This document shows, one piece after another, positions 15,183 to 22,510 of a DNA stretch of 64,000 bases; the stretch's first letter is position 1; each line of letters begins with the position of its first letter. The DNA comes from an uncultured bacterium. Its GTDB lineage: Bacteria; Bipolaricaulota; Bipolaricaulia; RBG-16-55-9; DRJF01. A model generated the notes under the pieces. The model did not search any database, was not told where the DNA came from, and saw only the letters and a list, made by a program, of their open reading frames with translations. The translations under genes and the position numbers were made by a program. The DNA is taken from contig CAJXGD010000001.1 of the NCBI GenBank assembly GCA_913053845.1, positions 1-64,000 of the forward strand, in the 5' to 3' direction.

Positions 15183-18062
15183 TTGAAGCGTAGCCTCTTG
15201 ATCACCACCCTAATGGCGCTGGCGCTTGTGGCCTCCGCCGGCCAAGCTTTAGCCCAGCAGACACCGTCGTTGCCCTATAATTACTATGATCTCGAAGTCA
15301 GGCTCAACCCCACACGACAAGCACTGGTCGGCCAGGAGACCATCGTCTACTTCAACGACTCCGCCAGCCCTCTGCCGGCCATCTACTTCAACCTCGCGCC
15401 CAACTACTTGAAATCACCCGACCCCTATCTCTCACCTTTACTGCTCGACGAGAGCTATCCCGATGGCTTTGACCCCGGCTGGCTGAAGGTCAAGTCGGTC
15501 CAAGATGAACAGGGCGCCAAGCTCTCCTACCGCTTGCTGCCCGGACCACCGACCTTCCAGAACTTCTCGCTGGCCGATACGCTGATGCGCGTCGAGCTGC
15601 CCCGGCCGCTGCCCCCCGGCGCACGTCAGACGCTGATCATCGGTTTTGCCACCAGATTCCCCAACTCTACCAGCGGAGACGAAGCCTACTACCGTGATAC
15701 CTATACCTGGCGCTCCGGCTGGCAACCGGTGGCCGTGCCGGCAAAATACTTAACACAGGGCAAATATCCCTCCAATGCCCAGACTCCCCCTAAGGAGATC
15801 CAACCCTCGGCCCTCTATGAGCTGACCTTGACGATTCCCGCCGGCTACCAGGCGGCCATCGGCGCCGATCACCAGGAAATCATCAGCCGAGACGAGCAGC
15901 AGCATACCGAAACGATTCATGCCCTCTCGGCCACCCCCACCCGCTCGGTGCCGCTCAGCATCGGCAAGGATTACCAGCATTACAGCTTGGCCCATTCCGA
16001 TATCCCCATCGAAGTCTATTATCTGCCCGGCGATCAGGCCGCCGCCAGACTGATCGCCAGCTACGCCGCTGAAAGCTTGGATTACTATCGCCAGCGCTGG
16101 GGAAAATACCCCCACCACCGCCTGTTGATCGTCAGCAGCGCCTCTGTTTCCGCCGGCTTCTCCGGAGCGGCCGCCGATGAGCTGATCATCTTGAATCGCA
16201 GTCTATTCGCAGATAAAGACTTGGCTGTGCGCGGCCTGATGGACCGTTGGCTCGATCAGATCATCGCCCACGAGATCGCTCACCAGTGGTGGGGCATCGG
16301 CATCGGGGCCGATCTCAACGCCCAGAACTTTCTCAGCGAGTCCTTCGCCCAGTATTTCTCTATCACCTATTTTGAGCATAAATATGGTAGTAAAGGCGGC
16401 AACGTCTTTCAACCCAAGCGCGATGGTCTGTTGGAGCGCTATGTCAAGAGCCAGTTCGGCTATATCAACCTGCGCCAGCACCTGGAGGGCGATCTGCCCT
16501 ATATTACCGCCTTTGACAATCACTTCGATGAGGCGATCATCAAGCCGCAGCAGCGGACACGCTATCTCAACCAGACGGCCGAGCGCCTCTACAACAAGGG
16601 CTATCTGGTCCTGCGCGCCCTGCGAGGGCTCTTGGGTCAAGCGCAGATGGACCGGCTGCTCAAGACGGCCCAGCAGAAGTATCTTCACCGGGTGATGACC
16701 GTCGAGGAGCTGCGCACCCTGGCGGAGCAGCTCTCCGGCCAAGACCTGACCCTCTTCTTTGAGGACTGGCTCTATCGGAATCAAGATAGCCAGAGGGGCA
16801 GAGCCGGCCAGGCGCCTTATATCGATCTAGGAGTGGCCCAGGTACGTTCTAGCTTGCAACCCGATGGCCAGTACCAGAACGAGATCGTGCTCACCCGCCG
16901 GGGCTCGGCCCGCCTGCCGGCGCAGTTGGTGGCCACCTCTGCCAGCGGCCATATCTATCGGGTGACCTGGCAGGTCGCCCAGCAGGCTGAGCGCCGTTAC
17001 ACGCTGCTGCTGACCTCAGACTCGCCGCTCACCGAGGTGCAGCTCGATCCGAACTCCTGGCTGCCGGATGTCAATCGGCTGAACAACACCTGGTTGCAGG
17101 ATGAGCCCTTCGGGCGCAAGCTAGACGTCATCCTCAACGGCGATAACGCCATGCCGTTGGACGCCTATCTCATCCGCTTCGATCCGACCCGCCAACTGCT
17201 GGAGGGTGGCTTTTTGCGGGAGCATCGCTGGTGGATCGGCAATGGCTTCGCCGGCTTTCTGCTCAACCTGCATCGTGGCTCCAGTCTGAGCGCCTCCCTG
17301 GATCTGATCGGCCAACTGGCCGGGAAACTCCAGTGGACCAAGAGCTTCTACTCCTGGCCGGTGACCGGCTATCCGGGGCGCTATTGGCAGGCCTCCGACC
17401 TGCTCAAGCTCTCGCTGGTGCGCAGCTCCGACGCCAGTGGCCATCCGGGGCTGGATCGCATTCTGGGCGCGGCCCATCGCATGATCACCTATCTGGATCT
17501 CCGTTGGCGGCATAAAGAGTCGCTCAGTGGGCTTTATAGTTATTGGCTGGCCCTGCAGGATGATCCCTTCTCCTTCCAGCGCTTGCAGTTGGGCGGCTCG
17601 CTCAGCCTCAGAGTGGCGCCGCAGGCCGCGCTGACTCTCAGCCTGGCCGGAGGGTGGGGCCAAAACCTTTCAGGGCTCTTTCACTTTAATTTAAGCGAAC
17701 TACGGGGCTTTCAGAAAGCGGTGGGTTATCCCTTTCCCGGCAACGTGAAGTTCTTCGGGCAACTCTCGCTGCACTATCCTATGCAGCGGGATATGAACTA
17801 TGACCTGTTAGGGCTGGTAGCTCTAGGGCGCGTGGACGAGCGGCTTTACCTGCAAGGGGCCAACACCTGGCAGCGGCTGGACGATATACGCCTGGATCAG
17901 CTCAAGGTGGAGCTGGGCTTCGAGCTCACTGCTGTGGGGCGCACCTTCGGTGGGCTGTTCCCCTTCGATGTTACCGTAGGATTCGTCTACCCACTGTCGG
18001 GCATCAACGAATCGGCCCGTCAGGTCAAGCAATACTTCCGTATCTCGACCCCGCTGCTCTAG
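15183..18062 (+). CDS. exported M1-like (gluzincin) peptidase with C-terminal beta-barrel-like domain
   Basis: A 959-residue exported protein starting at TTG (GGAGG eight bases upstream). A signal peptide of about 25 residues ends ALAQ. The N-terminal beta domain and thermolysin-like domain follow the M1 family: zinc ligands His363 and His367 in HEIAHQWWG with catalytic Glu364, and the third ligand Glu386 in NFLSESFAQ, exactly 19 residues on. The M1 exopeptidase motif GxMEN is replaced by AGFSGAAAD, so aminopeptidase specificity is doubtful. From about residue 640 to the end the sequence alternates in short amphipathic strands with aromatic girdles and ends in YFRISTPLL, as in outer-membrane beta barrels. 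This suggests a surface-anchored peptidase in a diderm cell. The barrel assignment is inferred from pattern only. Confidence 0.78.
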   Translation: MKRSLLITTLMALALVASAGQALAQQTPSLPYNYYDLEVRLNPTRQALVGQETIVYFNDSASPLPAIYFNLAPNYLKSPDPYLSPLLLDESYPDGFDPGWLKVKSVQDEQGAKLSYRLLPGPPTFQNFSLADTLMRVELPRPLPPGARQTLIIGFATRFPNSTSGDEAYYRDTYTWRSGWQPVAVPAKYLTQGKYPSNAQTPPKEIQPSALYELTLTIPAGYQAAIGADHQEIISRDEQQHTETIHALSATPTRSVPLSIGKDYQHYSLAHSDIPIEVYYLPGDQAAARLIASYAAESLDYYRQRWGKYPHHRLLIVSSASVSAGFSGAAADELIILNRSLFADKDLAVRGLMDRWLDQIIAHEIAHQWWGIGIGADLNAQNFLSESFAQYFSITYFEHKYGSKGGNVFQPKRDGLLERYVKSQFGYINLRQHLEGDLPYITAFDNHFDEAIIKPQQRTRYLNQTAERLYNKGYLVLRALRGLLGQAQMDRLLKTAQQKYLHRVMTVEELRTLAEQLSGQDLTLFFEDWLYRNQDSQRGRAGQAPYIDLGVAQVRSSLQPDGQYQNEIVLTRRGSARLPAQLVATSASGHIYRVTWQVAQQAERRYTLLLTSDSPLTEVQLDPNSWLPDVNRLNNTWLQDEPFGRKLDVILNGDNAMPLDAYLIRFDPTRQLLEGGFLREHRWWIGNGFAGFLLNLHRGSSLSASLDLIGQLAGKLQWTKSFYSWPVTGYPGRYWQASDLLKLSLVRSSDASGHPGLDRILGAAHRMITYLDLRWRHKESLSGLYSYWLALQDDPFSFQRLQLGGSLSLRVAPQAALTLSLAGGWGQNLSGLFHFNLSELRGFQKAVGYPFPGNVKFFGQLSLHYPMQRDMNYDLLGLVALGRVDERLYLQGANTWQRLDDIRLDQLKVELGFELTAVGRTFGGLFPFDVTVGFVYPLSGINESARQVKQYFRISTPLL

Positions 18063-18067
18063 AAGCG

Positions 18068-18952
18068 ATGAGAGTGGTGCGCAGTAGTGCCGAAGTGAGA
18101 GCCGCGCTCAAGAGAGCGCGCGCCGCCGGCGCAAGACGGCTGGCGCTGATTCCCACTGCGGGCGCACTGCATCGCGGCCACCTGAGCCTGGTCCAATTGG
18201 CCCAAGCTCAGGCCGATTACCGGGTAGTAAGCCTCTTCGTCAACCCCACTCAGTTCGGTCCCACCGAGGACTTTACCGCTTACCCTCGCGATGAAGAGTG
18301 CGACCGTCGGCTGCTAGAGGAGCAGGGAGTGGAGTTGCTCTTCACCCCGCCGGTCGAAGATATTTATCCCCAAAAGCCGCGCCTCGGCTTTGAGATCTCC
18401 GGACTGGCCGATCACCTCTGTGGGGCCAGGCGACCGGGCCACTTCAACGGCGTCCTGCTCATCGTGGCCAAGCTTTTTAACCTGATTCAGCCTGAGGTGG
18501 CCGTCTTCGGCATGAAGGACCTACAACAACTGGTGATCATCAAACAGTTGGTGCGCGAGCTGAGCTTCGACATTCAGATCGTCGCCGCTCCCACGGTGCG
18601 CGAGCCGGACGGCCTGGCGCTGAGCTCGCGCAATCGCTATCTCAACCCGGAAGAGCGTCGGCAAAGCTCGGCACTCTATCGGGCGCTTGAGCGAGGCCAA
18701 GCGCTGATCGCGGCCGGCGAACGGCAGGCCGAGCGGGTGATCGCCGAGATGAAGAGCCTACTCGAGGCCGAGGCCCCGCTGGCTCGGCTGGATTATCTGG
18801 AGATCGTTGATCTGGCAAAGCTGCAGCCCTTGAAGCAGCTGAGCGGGCGCTGTGCGTTGGCTTTGGCCGCTTATTTTGGGCGCGCCCGGCTGATAGACAA
18901 CCTGGTGCTGGAGGTGCGAGGTGAAGCCGTCCGCGAGCTCCGAGCGATCTAG
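18068..18952 (+). CDS. panC: pantothenate synthetase (pantoate--beta-alanine ligase)
   Basis: A 294-residue cytoplasmic enzyme that joins pantoate and beta-alanine using ATP, the last step to pantothenate for coenzyme A. The HIGH-type motif is PTAGALHRGH (about residues 30-39; most homologs have PTMGALHEGH). VNPTQFGP follows, then AVFGMKDLQQ (usually FGEKD) and the KMSKS-like LSSRNRYL (about 182). The Met-to-Ala and Glu-to-Met changes sit in substrate-binding loops but leave the catalytic His and Lys/Asp pattern intact. It starts five bases after the peptidase. Its stop codon shares four bases (CTAG) with the convergent darT stop. No panB or panD is in the window. Confidence 0.9.
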   Translation: MRVVRSSAEVRAALKRARAAGARRLALIPTAGALHRGHLSLVQLAQAQADYRVVSLFVNPTQFGPTEDFTAYPRDEECDRRLLEEQGVELLFTPPVEDIYPQKPRLGFEISGLADHLCGARRPGHFNGVLLIVAKLFNLIQPEVAVFGMKDLQQLVIIKQLVRELSFDIQIVAAPTVREPDGLALSSRNRYLNPEERRQSSALYRALERGQALIAAGERQAERVIAEMKSLLEAEAPLARLDYLEIVDLAKLQPLKQLSGRCALALAAYFGRARLIDNLVLEVRGEAVRELRAI

Positions 18953-19923
18953 AATGGGGCATCCATCAATGTATAGGAATTAGCATACGCTAAATGCCCA
19001 TCGAGCTTGATTTGTATAGTGTAGTGAGGTAGTGTTATTGGTAAGTCGATTTTGATATCTTTGGTTACATAGAAATTCTCTTTCCCCAGGTGGTAATCAT
19101 TCAGTATGACTTGCAGGCGGAACGGCCCGGGAGATCGAGTATCAGGCGAAAAGCGTGCAACCACATGATTTGCACTGAGTTCAACCGTTTCAATGAAGGT
19201 GTGAGCTCGAAAAAATAGCATACTGCGGGTCGTGGCCACAATCATTTCCTGGTATTGCCGTCGCAGCTTGGGAGATAATAGGGATAACAAGGTCTCCTTC
19301 TCAGCAGCGGAGCGGCAGTAGATGAAGCTCAGGGAGGTTAGATCAAGTTTCTGCGGCACGATGACCTCCGCATTACGCCGAAAGGTTATGTCGGAATCCT
19401 GGTGAGGGTCGAAGGGACCGGTGTGGTAAATCCTTGCCCAAGGGAGGTTCTCCAGCTCAGCCGCTGTGGAGAGGCGTTGGGCACGAGGGCTGGCCAGGTT
19501 GCCATCTGAAAACTGACAGTCAGCGCGGGTGAGAATTGCGTTAGAGTCAAACAGGAAAAAGACTGGTACAGGGCAATGTGCATGCAATGGGGTTATCTGG
19601 TCTATCGTTCGTATACCCTCGATATGATATTGTGTCGGAGTTTTAGGTCGAAAATAGAGGCGCACATAATGCTTAGCCGAGGTGGCAGTACCTGCCAGCA
19701 CACGAGGACTACCACTGTCTACGGTTGGTTGATGAGCCTCCTCAAGATAGTTACGACAATGGAGACAACCTTCCTGTAGTATCTTTGCGGCATTGCGTAC
19801 ATCAGTATAATGAAAGACAAACCGGGGCCACCAACGCCTTTCCGAACGCTTTAGCCAGGATTGATCAGCTAGAGCCTGCAGGCAACTAAGGATTTGCGCT
19901 GTATCCAACTTGCGCTTGACCAT
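18949..19923 (-). CDS. darT: DarT-like toxin: DNA ADP-ribosyltransferase (DUF4433) with extra C-terminal domain
   Basis: About 324 residues. Residues about 35-205 match the DarT fold: FHYTDVRNAAKILQEG at the start (NAD-binding block), YVRLYFRPKTPTQY (about 86-99), and RRNAEVIVP near the end, whose Glu (about 186) matches the catalytic Glu. DarT adds ADP-ribose to thymine in single-stranded DNA and blocks replication. Typical DarT is about 210 residues; here about 100 extra beta-rich residues follow, which I do not recognise. The start is uncertain (19977 or 19923); no clear ribosome binding site exists and both overlap the upstream antitoxin gene, as expected for a coupled toxin. The locus is AT-richer than its neighbours, suggesting transfer. 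Confidence 0.75.
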   Translation of the reverse strand: MVKRKLDTAQILSCLQALADQSWLKRSERRWWPRFVFHYTDVRNAAKILQEGCLHCRNYLEEAHQPTVDSGSPRVLAGTATSAKHYVRLYFRPKTPTQYHIEGIRTIDQITPLHAHCPVPVFFLFDSNAILTRADCQFSDGNLASPRAQRLSTAAELENLPWARIYHTGPFDPHQDSDITFRRNAEVIVPQKLDLTSLSFIYCRSAAEKETLLSLLSPKLRRQYQEMIVATTRSMLFFRAHTFIETVELSANHVVARFSPDTRSPGPFRLQVILNDYHLGKENFYVTKDIKIDLPITLPHYTIQIKLDGHLAYANSYTLMDAPF

Positions 19924-20854
19924 AGGTGGTAGGCAAGGCTGACTTAAAAAGCGGCAATTGCGTCTGCTGACGTCCACGGTTGAAGGCGAGAGGGAGCACC
20001 TGCAAGCCTATGATAGGTGACCGCCGGAGATCAGCATAGTGCACAGCGACTTTAACCGGTTTCACATATGACAAACTAGCAAATAGAGGGGCCAAATAAT
20101 ACACCTGCCGGCTGAGACTGGGTACGATATTGCGTGTGGAGAACCCATGAGTTCTAAGCTGCTGCCAGAAAGCCATTAAGCTATCATAGGGGACATAATA
20201 GCGCTTATTGGAAGCAACTATCTCTATTGCTCGTGGTGCATGTTTCACTGTAGCAATAAATGGATGGTGATTGGCAATTGTTTCAAAGCTATGTCTCCTA
20301 CCTAACAACTGCTCAATGTCTTCCCATACTTCAGAGAAGGGTAAGCTGGTAGGTTCAGAACGTAGCCATGCTTTCATCACTAGGGGGTCCTCATGTTCTG
20401 GGACAAAAGCATCTTTAAGGTCTGGATATACAAATACGTCTATAGGCAATCTGCTTAAATATTCGTGCATTAGGGGTTGAACGTCTTTCTGAAAGTCTAG
20501 ACCCCCATTCCCGCAGCCGAGGGGGGGGAAAGCAATACTCTGAATACCTAATTTGGTATAGGTAGCGACAAATTTACCCAGACCAGTCCCAATATACTCC
20601 AAGCGCGAGGGATTGCGCCAATGCTGCTTGGTGGGAAAGTTGAGCACCCATTTGTTAGCGCTCTTGTAGAGCCAGAGTGTCCCGATCTTTAATTTCCCCT
20701 GCTCACAGAGCTGACGATACTGTTTGAACATCTCTGGGAACAGTCGCTTGAAATCGTAAGCCACACCTTTACCCATCACACCCACAGTATTGACGGTGTT
20801 AACAAGCACCTGTGCCGGGGCCTGGAAAATATTCCCACTTACATATAGAATCAT
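19886..20854 (-). CDS. darG: DarG-like antitoxin: macrodomain DNA ADP-ribosylglycohydrolase
   Basis: About 322 residues. The N-terminal macrodomain (about 1-150) shows VSGNIFQAPAQVLVNTVN, then GVMGKGVA with the Lys expected in the DarG active site, and PPLGCGNGGLDF as the ADP-ribose loop. This domain removes the DNA mark placed by DarT. The C-terminal 170 residues do not show the KLAYFLQ-type segment of common DarG antitoxins and instead read as an unrecognised alpha/beta domain. I chose ATG at 20854 because GAGGTGA precedes it. The gene is upstream of and overlaps darT, and both are driven by a good promoter at 20901-20929. Confidence 0.8.
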   Translation of the reverse strand: MILYVSGNIFQAPAQVLVNTVNTVGVMGKGVAYDFKRLFPEMFKQYRQLCEQGKLKIGTLWLYKSANKWVLNFPTKQHWRNPSRLEYIGTGLGKFVATYTKLGIQSIAFPPLGCGNGGLDFQKDVQPLMHEYLSRLPIDVFVYPDLKDAFVPEHEDPLVMKAWLRSEPTSLPFSEVWEDIEQLLGRRHSFETIANHHPFIATVKHAPRAIEIVASNKRYYVPYDSLMAFWQQLRTHGFSTRNIVPSLSRQVYYLAPLFASLSYVKPVKVAVHYADLRRSPIIGLQVLPLAFNRGRQQTQLPLFKSALPTTYGQAQVGYSANP

Positions 20855-20900
20855 GGCCATCACCTCATCGTGGCTCATAGAGCATTGGCCCTATGTTTTT

Positions 20901-20929
20901 ATTATCGCAGACAGCGAGGGTCTTGGCAA
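20901..20929 (-). promoter_or_regulatory. promoter of the darG-darT operon
   Basis: On the minus strand TTGCCA (20924-20929) and GATAAT (20901-20906) are separated by 17 bases, about 45 bases before the darG ATG. Confidence 0.6.
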
Positions 20930-21013
20930 TTCCGCCGGTAAGCAGTTGAGGTGTTTAACAGTCTCGATCTGTGGTAAACTTATCCCTAGAGCTTCCATGG
21001 AGCGGGGAAACTG

Positions 21014-21511: not shown

Positions 21512-22510
21512 ATGGAGCGCGCCGCAGGGCTGAGCGTCGCAGATTTGCAGGTCCCAGACATCAGGCGCTCGGTGTTGGAACTGATCGCTCAGGTGCCGGC
21601 CGGTCGGGTGACCACCTATGGCAGGCTAGCCACCGCCTTGGGCGATGTGGTCGCCAGCCGTGCTGTGGGCCGGATCATCGCTGAAGCCGGCGCAGAGTAC
21701 CCTTGCCATCGGGTGGTCTACCGCGATGGGCGCGTCGGCACTTGGCGAGCCGGCGAGAGCCTAAGACGCCTGCGGGCCGAGGGCATCCGGCTCCAGGAGG
21801 ACCGCATCGCTGACTTGCCAGGCTTGCTCCTCTCCGAGTTCAGCTCAGAGCAGCCGCTCAAAGCGCTGCGTGACCTGCAGGACGAGCTGCGCTCCCGCAT
21901 CTCGACCGAGCCCGCCCGCTCAGAGTATCGCACCGTCGGCGCAGTGGACCTCTCCTATCCGGGGCCCTGGCAAGCTGTGGGAGCCTACGTGCGGCTGGAG
22001 GCCCGGAGCGGGCGCTTGCTGGATTTTCAGACGCTGCAGTCGGAAATAAACTTCCCCTATATCCCGAGCTATCTGTCCTTTCGCGAGTTGCCGGTCTTGC
22101 TCGCCTTGCTGAGCCAAACGCGACAATCCGGATTGCTTCCCGATGTTTTGATGGTGGACGGCAACGGGATATTGCACCCACGCGGCGCCGGGATCGCCTC
22201 GCATCTGGGAGTATTGCTGGATTTACCGACCATCGGGATCAGCAAATCCCTGCTCTGCGGCCAAGTTGATCTGAGCGGCATGAAGCGGGGCGAGGCACGA
22301 GAGATCAGAGATGCCAAGCGAGCAAATAGCATCATCGGTGCGGCGCTCAAGACCGGTGAGCGGTCCAAGCCGATCTTCGTCTCCATTGGCCACCGGATCG
22401 ACCTGGACTCAGCGATCGAGCTGACGTGGCGGCTGGCCTTAAAAAAGCTTCCGGAGCCGATCCGGCAAGCGCATCGGGCCTGCACCGTCGCAGCGCACCC
22501 TCATGCTTAG
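21512..22510 (+). CDS. fusion of O6-alkylguanine-DNA alkyltransferase and endonuclease V
   Basis: A 332-residue two-domain DNA repair protein. Residues about 15-95 are the active-site domain of an alkyltransferase: VPAGRVTTYGRLA, the Arg-finger segment ASRAVGRII, and YPCHRVV with the acceptor Cys65 retained, unlike Trp-bearing ATL proteins. Residues about 115-325 are endonuclease V: GAVDLSYPG (Asp146), PYIPSYLSFRE (Glu192), DVLMVDGNGILHPR (Asp216), then HLGVLLDLPTIGISKS and the SIGHRIDLDSA segment. The first domain would remove alkyl groups from guanine; the second cuts next to deoxyinosine. A bifunctional protein of this architecture was characterised from the archaeon Ferroplasma. Its stop overlaps the pyruvate kinase stop. 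Confidence 0.9.
   Translation: MERAAGLSVADLQVPDIRRSVLELIAQVPAGRVTTYGRLATALGDVVASRAVGRIIAEAGAEYPCHRVVYRDGRVGTWRAGESLRRLRAEGIRLQEDRIADLPGLLLSEFSSEQPLKALRDLQDELRSRISTEPARSEYRTVGAVDLSYPGPWQAVGAYVRLEARSGRLLDFQTLQSEINFPYIPSYLSFRELPVLLALLSQTRQSGLLPDVLMVDGNGILHPRGAGIASHLGVLLDLPTIGISKSLLCGQVDLSGMKRGEAREIRDAKRANSIIGAALKTGERSKPIFVSIGHRIDLDSAIELTWRLALKKLPEPIRQAHRACTVAAHPHA

Follow-up and report, generated by a model that had tools for sequence, protein, structure and literature searches.

We found that a divergent DarTG gene pair in the window, the 64,000-nucleotide stretch of DNA analysed here, is best read as an acquired toxin–antitoxin module in which both partners are enzymes, belonging to an antitoxin-first DarTG subfamily in which the tail domains of the two proteins form a replacement interface; we put the probability of this reading at about 0.72. 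The toxin is certainly a member of the DarT family and the antitoxin is certainly a DarG-type macrodomain protein, and judging from their sequences the module very likely adds ADP-ribose to nucleic acid and takes the same tag off again. Two types of DarTG system have been distinguished so far; the antitoxin is NADAR in DarTG1 and a macrodomain protein in DarTG2.

A preliminary description had placed a DarTG pair at this locus, and we found both genes there, on the minus strand, with the antitoxin gene ahead of the toxin gene (Table 1). The antitoxin-first order with its 38-nt overlap is a feature which that description missed. For darT, homologues favour the tabulated ATG over a GTG at 19977 that opens a 342-aa ORF, and for darG an in-frame ATG upstream, at 20878, gives an alternative product of 330 aa. 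The locus is AT-richer than its neighbours, as had been described, with a GC content of 0.44–0.53 as compared to about 0.61–0.63 on either side. The pair was also credited with its own near-consensus promoter; there is a 10/12 site with TG upstream of darG, but because the stretch holds five promoter-like sites of that grade where 2.2 are expected, we regard this candidate as no better than plausible.

Table 1. Positions of features at the DarTG locus, numbered along the window.
Feature	Position	Strand	Remarks
Interval gained between panC and tsaE	18953..21013		relative to same-order genomes; low GC
DarT-like ADP-ribosyltransferase toxin gene	18949..19923	-	324 aa from ATG 19923
Extra DarT C-terminal domain	18970..19197	-	about aa 243-318; predicted FN3/Ig-like beta-sandwich
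DarT catalytic core	19270..19824	-	from alignments; genome match 19270-19815
DarT catalytic Glu186	19366-19368	-	from alignments
DarT Thr97 (DarT2 Met78 position)	19633-19635	-	from alignments
DarT His38	19810-19812	-	from alignments
Overlap of DarG end and DarT start	19886..19923	-	38 nt
DarG-like antitoxin gene, first of the pair	19886..20854	-	322 aa from ATG 20854; start set by homologues
QLPLF, beta-clamp-binding-like motif	19946..19960	-	DarG aa 299-303; low-confidence, probably disordered tail
New DarG C-terminal domain, alpha/beta	19994..20392	-	about aa 155-287
DarG macrodomain	20414..20854	-	about aa 1-147
DarG catalytic Lys (TaqDarG K80 equivalent)	20627-20629	-	
Sigma-70-like promoter candidate	20901..20929	-	TTGCCA-17-GATAAT; 10/12 match, with TG

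Both C-terminal halves recur together and in the same order at 16 further loci, and thus the pair represents a subfamily and not an oddity of one genome. In all 17 intact pairs (the window pair and 16 from alphaproteobacteria) darG comes first and both new C-terminal domains are present; the genes overlap by 10–38 nt in 15 of the 17, and the two Ruegeria pairs are spaced by 12–14 nt. Full-length DarT relatives, C-terminal part included, are found on rhizobial plasmids and in alphaproteobacterial genomes, the latter from Bradyrhizobium, Allorhizobium, a Caulobacterales MAG, Ruegeria, Novosphingobium, Sphingobium, Rhizobium and further alphaproteobacteria. At an eighteenth locus, on Rhizobium binae plasmid p3 (L005 2767-8426), IS3 and IS66 elements have disrupted darT and left darG whole, which is what one would expect of a costly toxin. 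The subfamily is rare: it was present in 3 of 385 alphaproteobacterial genomes, search centre included. When we surveyed 372 alphaproteobacterial genomes with a DarG model, all 13 canonical darT-darG pairs were toxin first with the canonical C-terminal domain, the three new-type pairs were antitoxin first with the new C-terminal domain, and there were no mixed forms. We found no description of an antitoxin-first subfamily in the literature searched, and because that search left out most subscription journals, its status as undescribed is provisional.

In a tree of 17 new and 8 canonical DarTs, the new DarTs form a clade supported at 100/100, and a long branch separates it from the canonical ones; the tree holds no DarT1 row, so this placement says nothing on DarT1. 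The DarT core thus lies in a clade apart from canonical DarT2, and the original view of the pair as divergent is supported. The macrodomain tree does not split new and canonical groups cleanly, because a Klebsiella DarG lies beside the window DarG on a long branch, and a single new-type clade is not rejected (p-AU 0.30). The closest relative of the window macrodomain is that of an alphaproteobacterium (L017), at 60% identity.

DarG matches the DarG models of PADLOC (E = 1e-62) and NCBIfam (E = 5e-58) as well as Pfam Macro (E = 3e-18). Its macrodomain matches 5m31 both by sequence alignment (E = 2e-41) and by Foldseek (E = 2e-15). Catalytic residues for comparison were taken from TaqDarG mutants (PMC5179494), and the TaqDarG residues N22, K29, K80, H82, W83 and G119 are all kept in the window. 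From these kept residues we safely infer that the pair would reverse nucleic-acid ADP-ribosylation, with the DarG macrodomain removing the modification via its catalytic lysine.

Beyond the macrodomain, DarG is unlike canonical DarGs. The PADLOC and NCBIfam models cover aa 9–153 only, corresponding to profile positions 1–145 of 329, and hhalign of its C-terminal part against the canonical one gave a probability of 0.1%, in agreement with the earlier remark that the KLAYFLQ half is missing. The new C-terminal domain is conserved in 16 aligned relatives and is predicted by AlphaFold2 (AF2) to be a compact alpha/beta fold, with pLDDT mostly 77–93 per 10-residue block over aa 171–250 (the AF2 models of DarT and DarG were made from 10-row alignments and have a mean pLDDT of about 72). 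Profile searches of Pfam and PDB gave no match for it. According to the title of Deep et al. 2023, as cited in PMC12170906, the canonical DarG C-terminal domain inhibits M. tuberculosis DarT by ssDNA mimicry. In Taq, the DarG macrodomain alone sufficed to rescue DarT (PMC5179494), so DarG need not have a second layer of inhibition.

The DarG tail may have a further role. QLPLF lies in a low-pLDDT tail behind a low-confidence linker of the AF2 model, and it fits the bacterial clamp-binding consensus QL[S/D]LF or QxxLF (PMC12309361); the DarGs of relatives end mostly in Q-x-x-L-x-[W/Y/L] (QLELAW, QMTLQW, QQELSW, QLCLSL and others). The tail could be a peptide that binds the DnaN clamp: DarG tethered in this way would clear host template strands of ADP-ribose at replication forks, with the C-terminal domains acting as the interface. 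We hold this possible, if rather doubtful; it is compatible with our main reading, as both can hold together. Shuffled tails of the same composition hold Q[LM]xLF in 0.6% of trials, and Q-x-x-L-x-[WYLF] occurs within the last 40 residues in 11 of 13 representative relatives as compared to 0.56 expected from shuffles, although the rows are related and such counts are not independent. In most relatives the motif sits at the extreme C-terminus after a variable linker, and its Q and L are kept through synonymous codon changes. One relative (L007) has a shifted overlap register and Y in place of W, which leaves an aromatic residue at that position. QYDLF closes the Klebsiella DarG, whose C-terminal region is unrelated, and QKGLF is present in the host DnaE. 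On the other hand, three relatives (L010, L011 and L017) are without the motif, which was picked post hoc, and the loose pattern is also found in 5 of 21 canonical DarGs. In alphaproteobacterial relatives, the darT start codon shares nucleotides with the final motif positions and so constrains them. When we considered the motif codon by codon as a mere by-product of gene overlap, the explanation held for the terminal residues of the alphaproteobacterial rows; it failed for Q and L in the ATGGC-type rows and for the window QLPLF, which lies upstream of the darT start.

Clamp binding is known from a different toxin–antitoxin system: in Caulobacter SocAB, a protein with a sliding-clamp-binding motif is linked to DnaN (PMC9690074). 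In that system it is the toxin that attaches to the clamp, stopping elongation, whereas in the window the predicted motif is on the antitoxin. We found no report of clamp binding by any DarG in the literature searched. A bolder version, more doubtful still, is that of a third DarTG class in which the QLPLF or QxxLx[WYL] tail would keep DarG on DnaN, so that ADP-ribosylated bases are repaired at the host fork but modified DNA lacking host-type clamps, for instance that of some phages, stays blocked. The clamp lead raises the question of whether a DNA-repairing antitoxin can distinguish host forks from foreign DNA by means of the replication clamp.

The toxin matches Pfam PF14487 (E = 2e-25; 90 bits against a cut-off of 22.5) over aa 55–236 of the 342-aa ORF, that is, over the core only, and it also matches DarT in PADLOC (E = 5e-17). 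Weak Pfam matches to CpcD, RNB, BetaGal and Tox-ART-HYD1 were below cut-off and were discarded. By Foldseek, the DarT model is most similar to Thermus DarT2 structures (Thermus sp. 2.9 DarT, 7omy, E = 4e-10), and the DarT1 structure 8baq is not among the matches listed for it, although the PDB sequence set includes that entry. We mapped DarT2 numbering from structure chain coordinates and the residues named in PMC11543638. The H-Y-E triad (H13-Y71-E160 in Taq numbering) is kept in the window as His38, Tyr90 and Glu186; across the subfamily, Tyr and Glu are present in 17 of 17 members and His in 16. The base-coordinating position is Asn. DarT would transfer ADP-ribose from NAD+ to a nucleic-acid base, with thymine in ssDNA as the default guess.

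Two other positions depart from known DarTs. Met78 is essential in DarT2, and the equivalent Met71 is essential in DarT1 (PMC11543638). In the window DarT, the Met78 position is Thr in both MAFFT and hhalign alignments, and the Arg51 position is Ala in the MAFFT alignment, with an ambiguous gap nearby. The whole clade has Thr or Phe at the Met78 position and no clear equivalent of Arg51. With Met78 replaced by Thr and Arg51 not clearly kept, the reaction or target of the window DarT could differ from that of known DarTs. Taken further, these substitutions would mean that DarT modifies another base or RNA, or that it is a decaying remnant, which would also suit the broken darT beside an intact darG in R. 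binae. We consider this unlikely, given an undamaged window gene, conservation of the triad and of a motif peculiar to the clade (YFRPxTPTQ-HIEGIR), and a macrodomain that retains all TaqDarG catalytic residues.

The last ~100 residues of DarT match no known domain and are the most divergent part of the pair. They had been noted as about 100 extra beta-rich residues, and the AF2 model indeed places seven strands over aa 244–318. Foldseek matched this tail to FN3 domains with a probability of 1.0 and TMt up to about 0.58 but weak E-values near 0.02; the model and these matches suggest an FN3/Ig-like beta-sandwich. For DarT as for DarG, profile searches in Pfam and PDB gave nothing convincing, and neither C-terminal domain aligns with known DarT1/DarG1 or DarT2/DarG2 domains, so both remain as unfamiliar as first described.

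The extra parts had been proposed to form a new interface or a phage-sensing module. The interface is the better supported of the two, because the new domains co-occur strictly in the 17 pairs and are never mixed with canonical ones. In canonical systems, one layer of control consists of the DarG C-terminal domain occupying DarT; in our main reading, a new pair of domains, alpha/beta in DarG and an FN3-like sandwich in DarT, would have taken its place. Each of the two most likely binds the other, or the core of the partner protein, and would so keep the toxin in check. Antitoxin-first order and gene overlap would couple translation, so that DarG is made ahead of DarT.

Were the new domains instead to sense infection, a phage protein would be bound by the FN3-like domain or by the C-terminal domain of DarG, and DarT would thereby be freed. 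The divergence of the DarT C-terminal domain is as expected of a sensor, and relatives do occur in defence islands and prophages. One plasmid relative (L004) lies beside SIR2-HerA and an RT_UG20 retroelement, and another (L003) beside a ThsB-type TIR gene. The L010 pair is in a prophage setting: it is flanked by a DUF5906 gene on one side and a tail tape-measure gene on the other, and an integrase is encoded close by; large genes flank the L011 pair in the same arrangement. Yet mutual binding explains the strict co-occurrence of the two domains more simply, and searches of phages, viral contigs and viral structures found no homologous phage protein. DarT was not found in phages by tblastn, scans of viral contigs gave no match with the DarT profile or with the Klebsiella DarG, and in a viral structure library the best matches of the DarG model were confined to the macrodomain. 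The sensor is thus the least probable of these alternatives. The defence context of relatives also favours our main reading of a module with a replacement interface, for which a role in phage defence is likely by analogy with DarTG.

The DarTG pair is horizontally acquired. In five same-order genomes (L036, L037, L038, L044 and L045), panC is directly next to tsaE, and a gene for an M1-peptidase/outer-membrane-like protein adjoins panC in turn; the window pair is placed exactly between panC and tsaE. The adjacency of these genes in relatives, with an AT-richer pair between them here, indicates acquisition. An assembly chimera was rejected because panC and tsaE flank the pair on both sides as in relatives. 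The source genome is a 2.3 Mb draft, and none of the 99 other genomes of the phylum holds relatives of the pair. No border repeats pointing to transposition or integration were found at the locus. The M1 peptidase gene of the window (15183-18062, plus strand) encodes a 959-aa protein with a long C-terminal region that looks barrel-like (outer-membrane) by eye; its counterpart lies upstream of panC in the five same-order genomes with a readable flank. Next to tsaE, a plus-strand gene (21512-22510) encodes a 332-aa fusion of an O6-methylguanine-DNA-methyltransferase-like DNA-binding domain (PF01035) and endonuclease V (PF04493), which by domain content would join two DNA-repair activities in a single chain.

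We compared the pair with known systems. With DarTG2 (Thermus DarT/DarG; M. tuberculosis Rv0059/Rv0060) it shares the DarT-fold ART core with its H-Y-E triad, a macrodomain antitoxin with TaqDarG N22, K29, K80 and G119, a two-gene operon, and mobile and defence settings. In contrast to DarTG2, where darT is upstream of darG, the antitoxin comes first, DarT has an extra, predicted FN3-like C-terminal domain, the DarG C-terminal domain is unrelated, Thr replaces Met78 and Arg51 has no clear equivalent, and the clade is separate (100/100). With DarTG1 (DarT1-NADAR, guanine-specific) it shares a DarT-family ART toxin with a catalytic Glu and Asn at the base-coordinating position (N104-like); however, its antitoxin is a macrodomain and not NADAR, and its toxin has the Tyr71 of DarT2 in place of the Ser63 of DarT1. 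Three traits of DarTG2 are thus missing from the pair (the order of the genes, the DarG C-terminal domain and Met78), as is the NADAR of DarTG1. The Thermosipho africanus DarTG (7omu) also combines a DarT core and a DarG-type macrodomain, but as one fused chain, whereas the pair described here consists of two genes, antitoxin first, with extra domains.

If true, a third branch, marked by reversed order, replacement of both accessory domains and substitution of a residue essential in both known types, would show how freely a toxin–antitoxin interface swaps around a conserved DNA-ADP-ribosylation cycle. The subfamily would supply new enzymes as candidates for the study of base specificity.

Other DarTG variants turned up among plasmids. 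On Klebsiella quasipneumoniae plasmid pWP3-W18-CRE-02_7 (L021 1680-2357), a DarTG of canonical order has a DarG without the KLAYFLQ domain; its short C-terminal region, helix-hairpin-helix-like by eye, precedes the QYDLF end, and its sole match in the plasmid collection is itself. A Hymenobacter sp. NBH84 plasmid (L025 1-3532) carries a DarT domain in a protein of roughly 1690 aa, with no annotated macrodomain partner beside it. On A. tumefaciens pAt1D1609b (L024 1164-2483, 2504-3979), DarT is fused to an HD domain (PF01966), and the 491-aa DarG has an unrelated C-terminal half.
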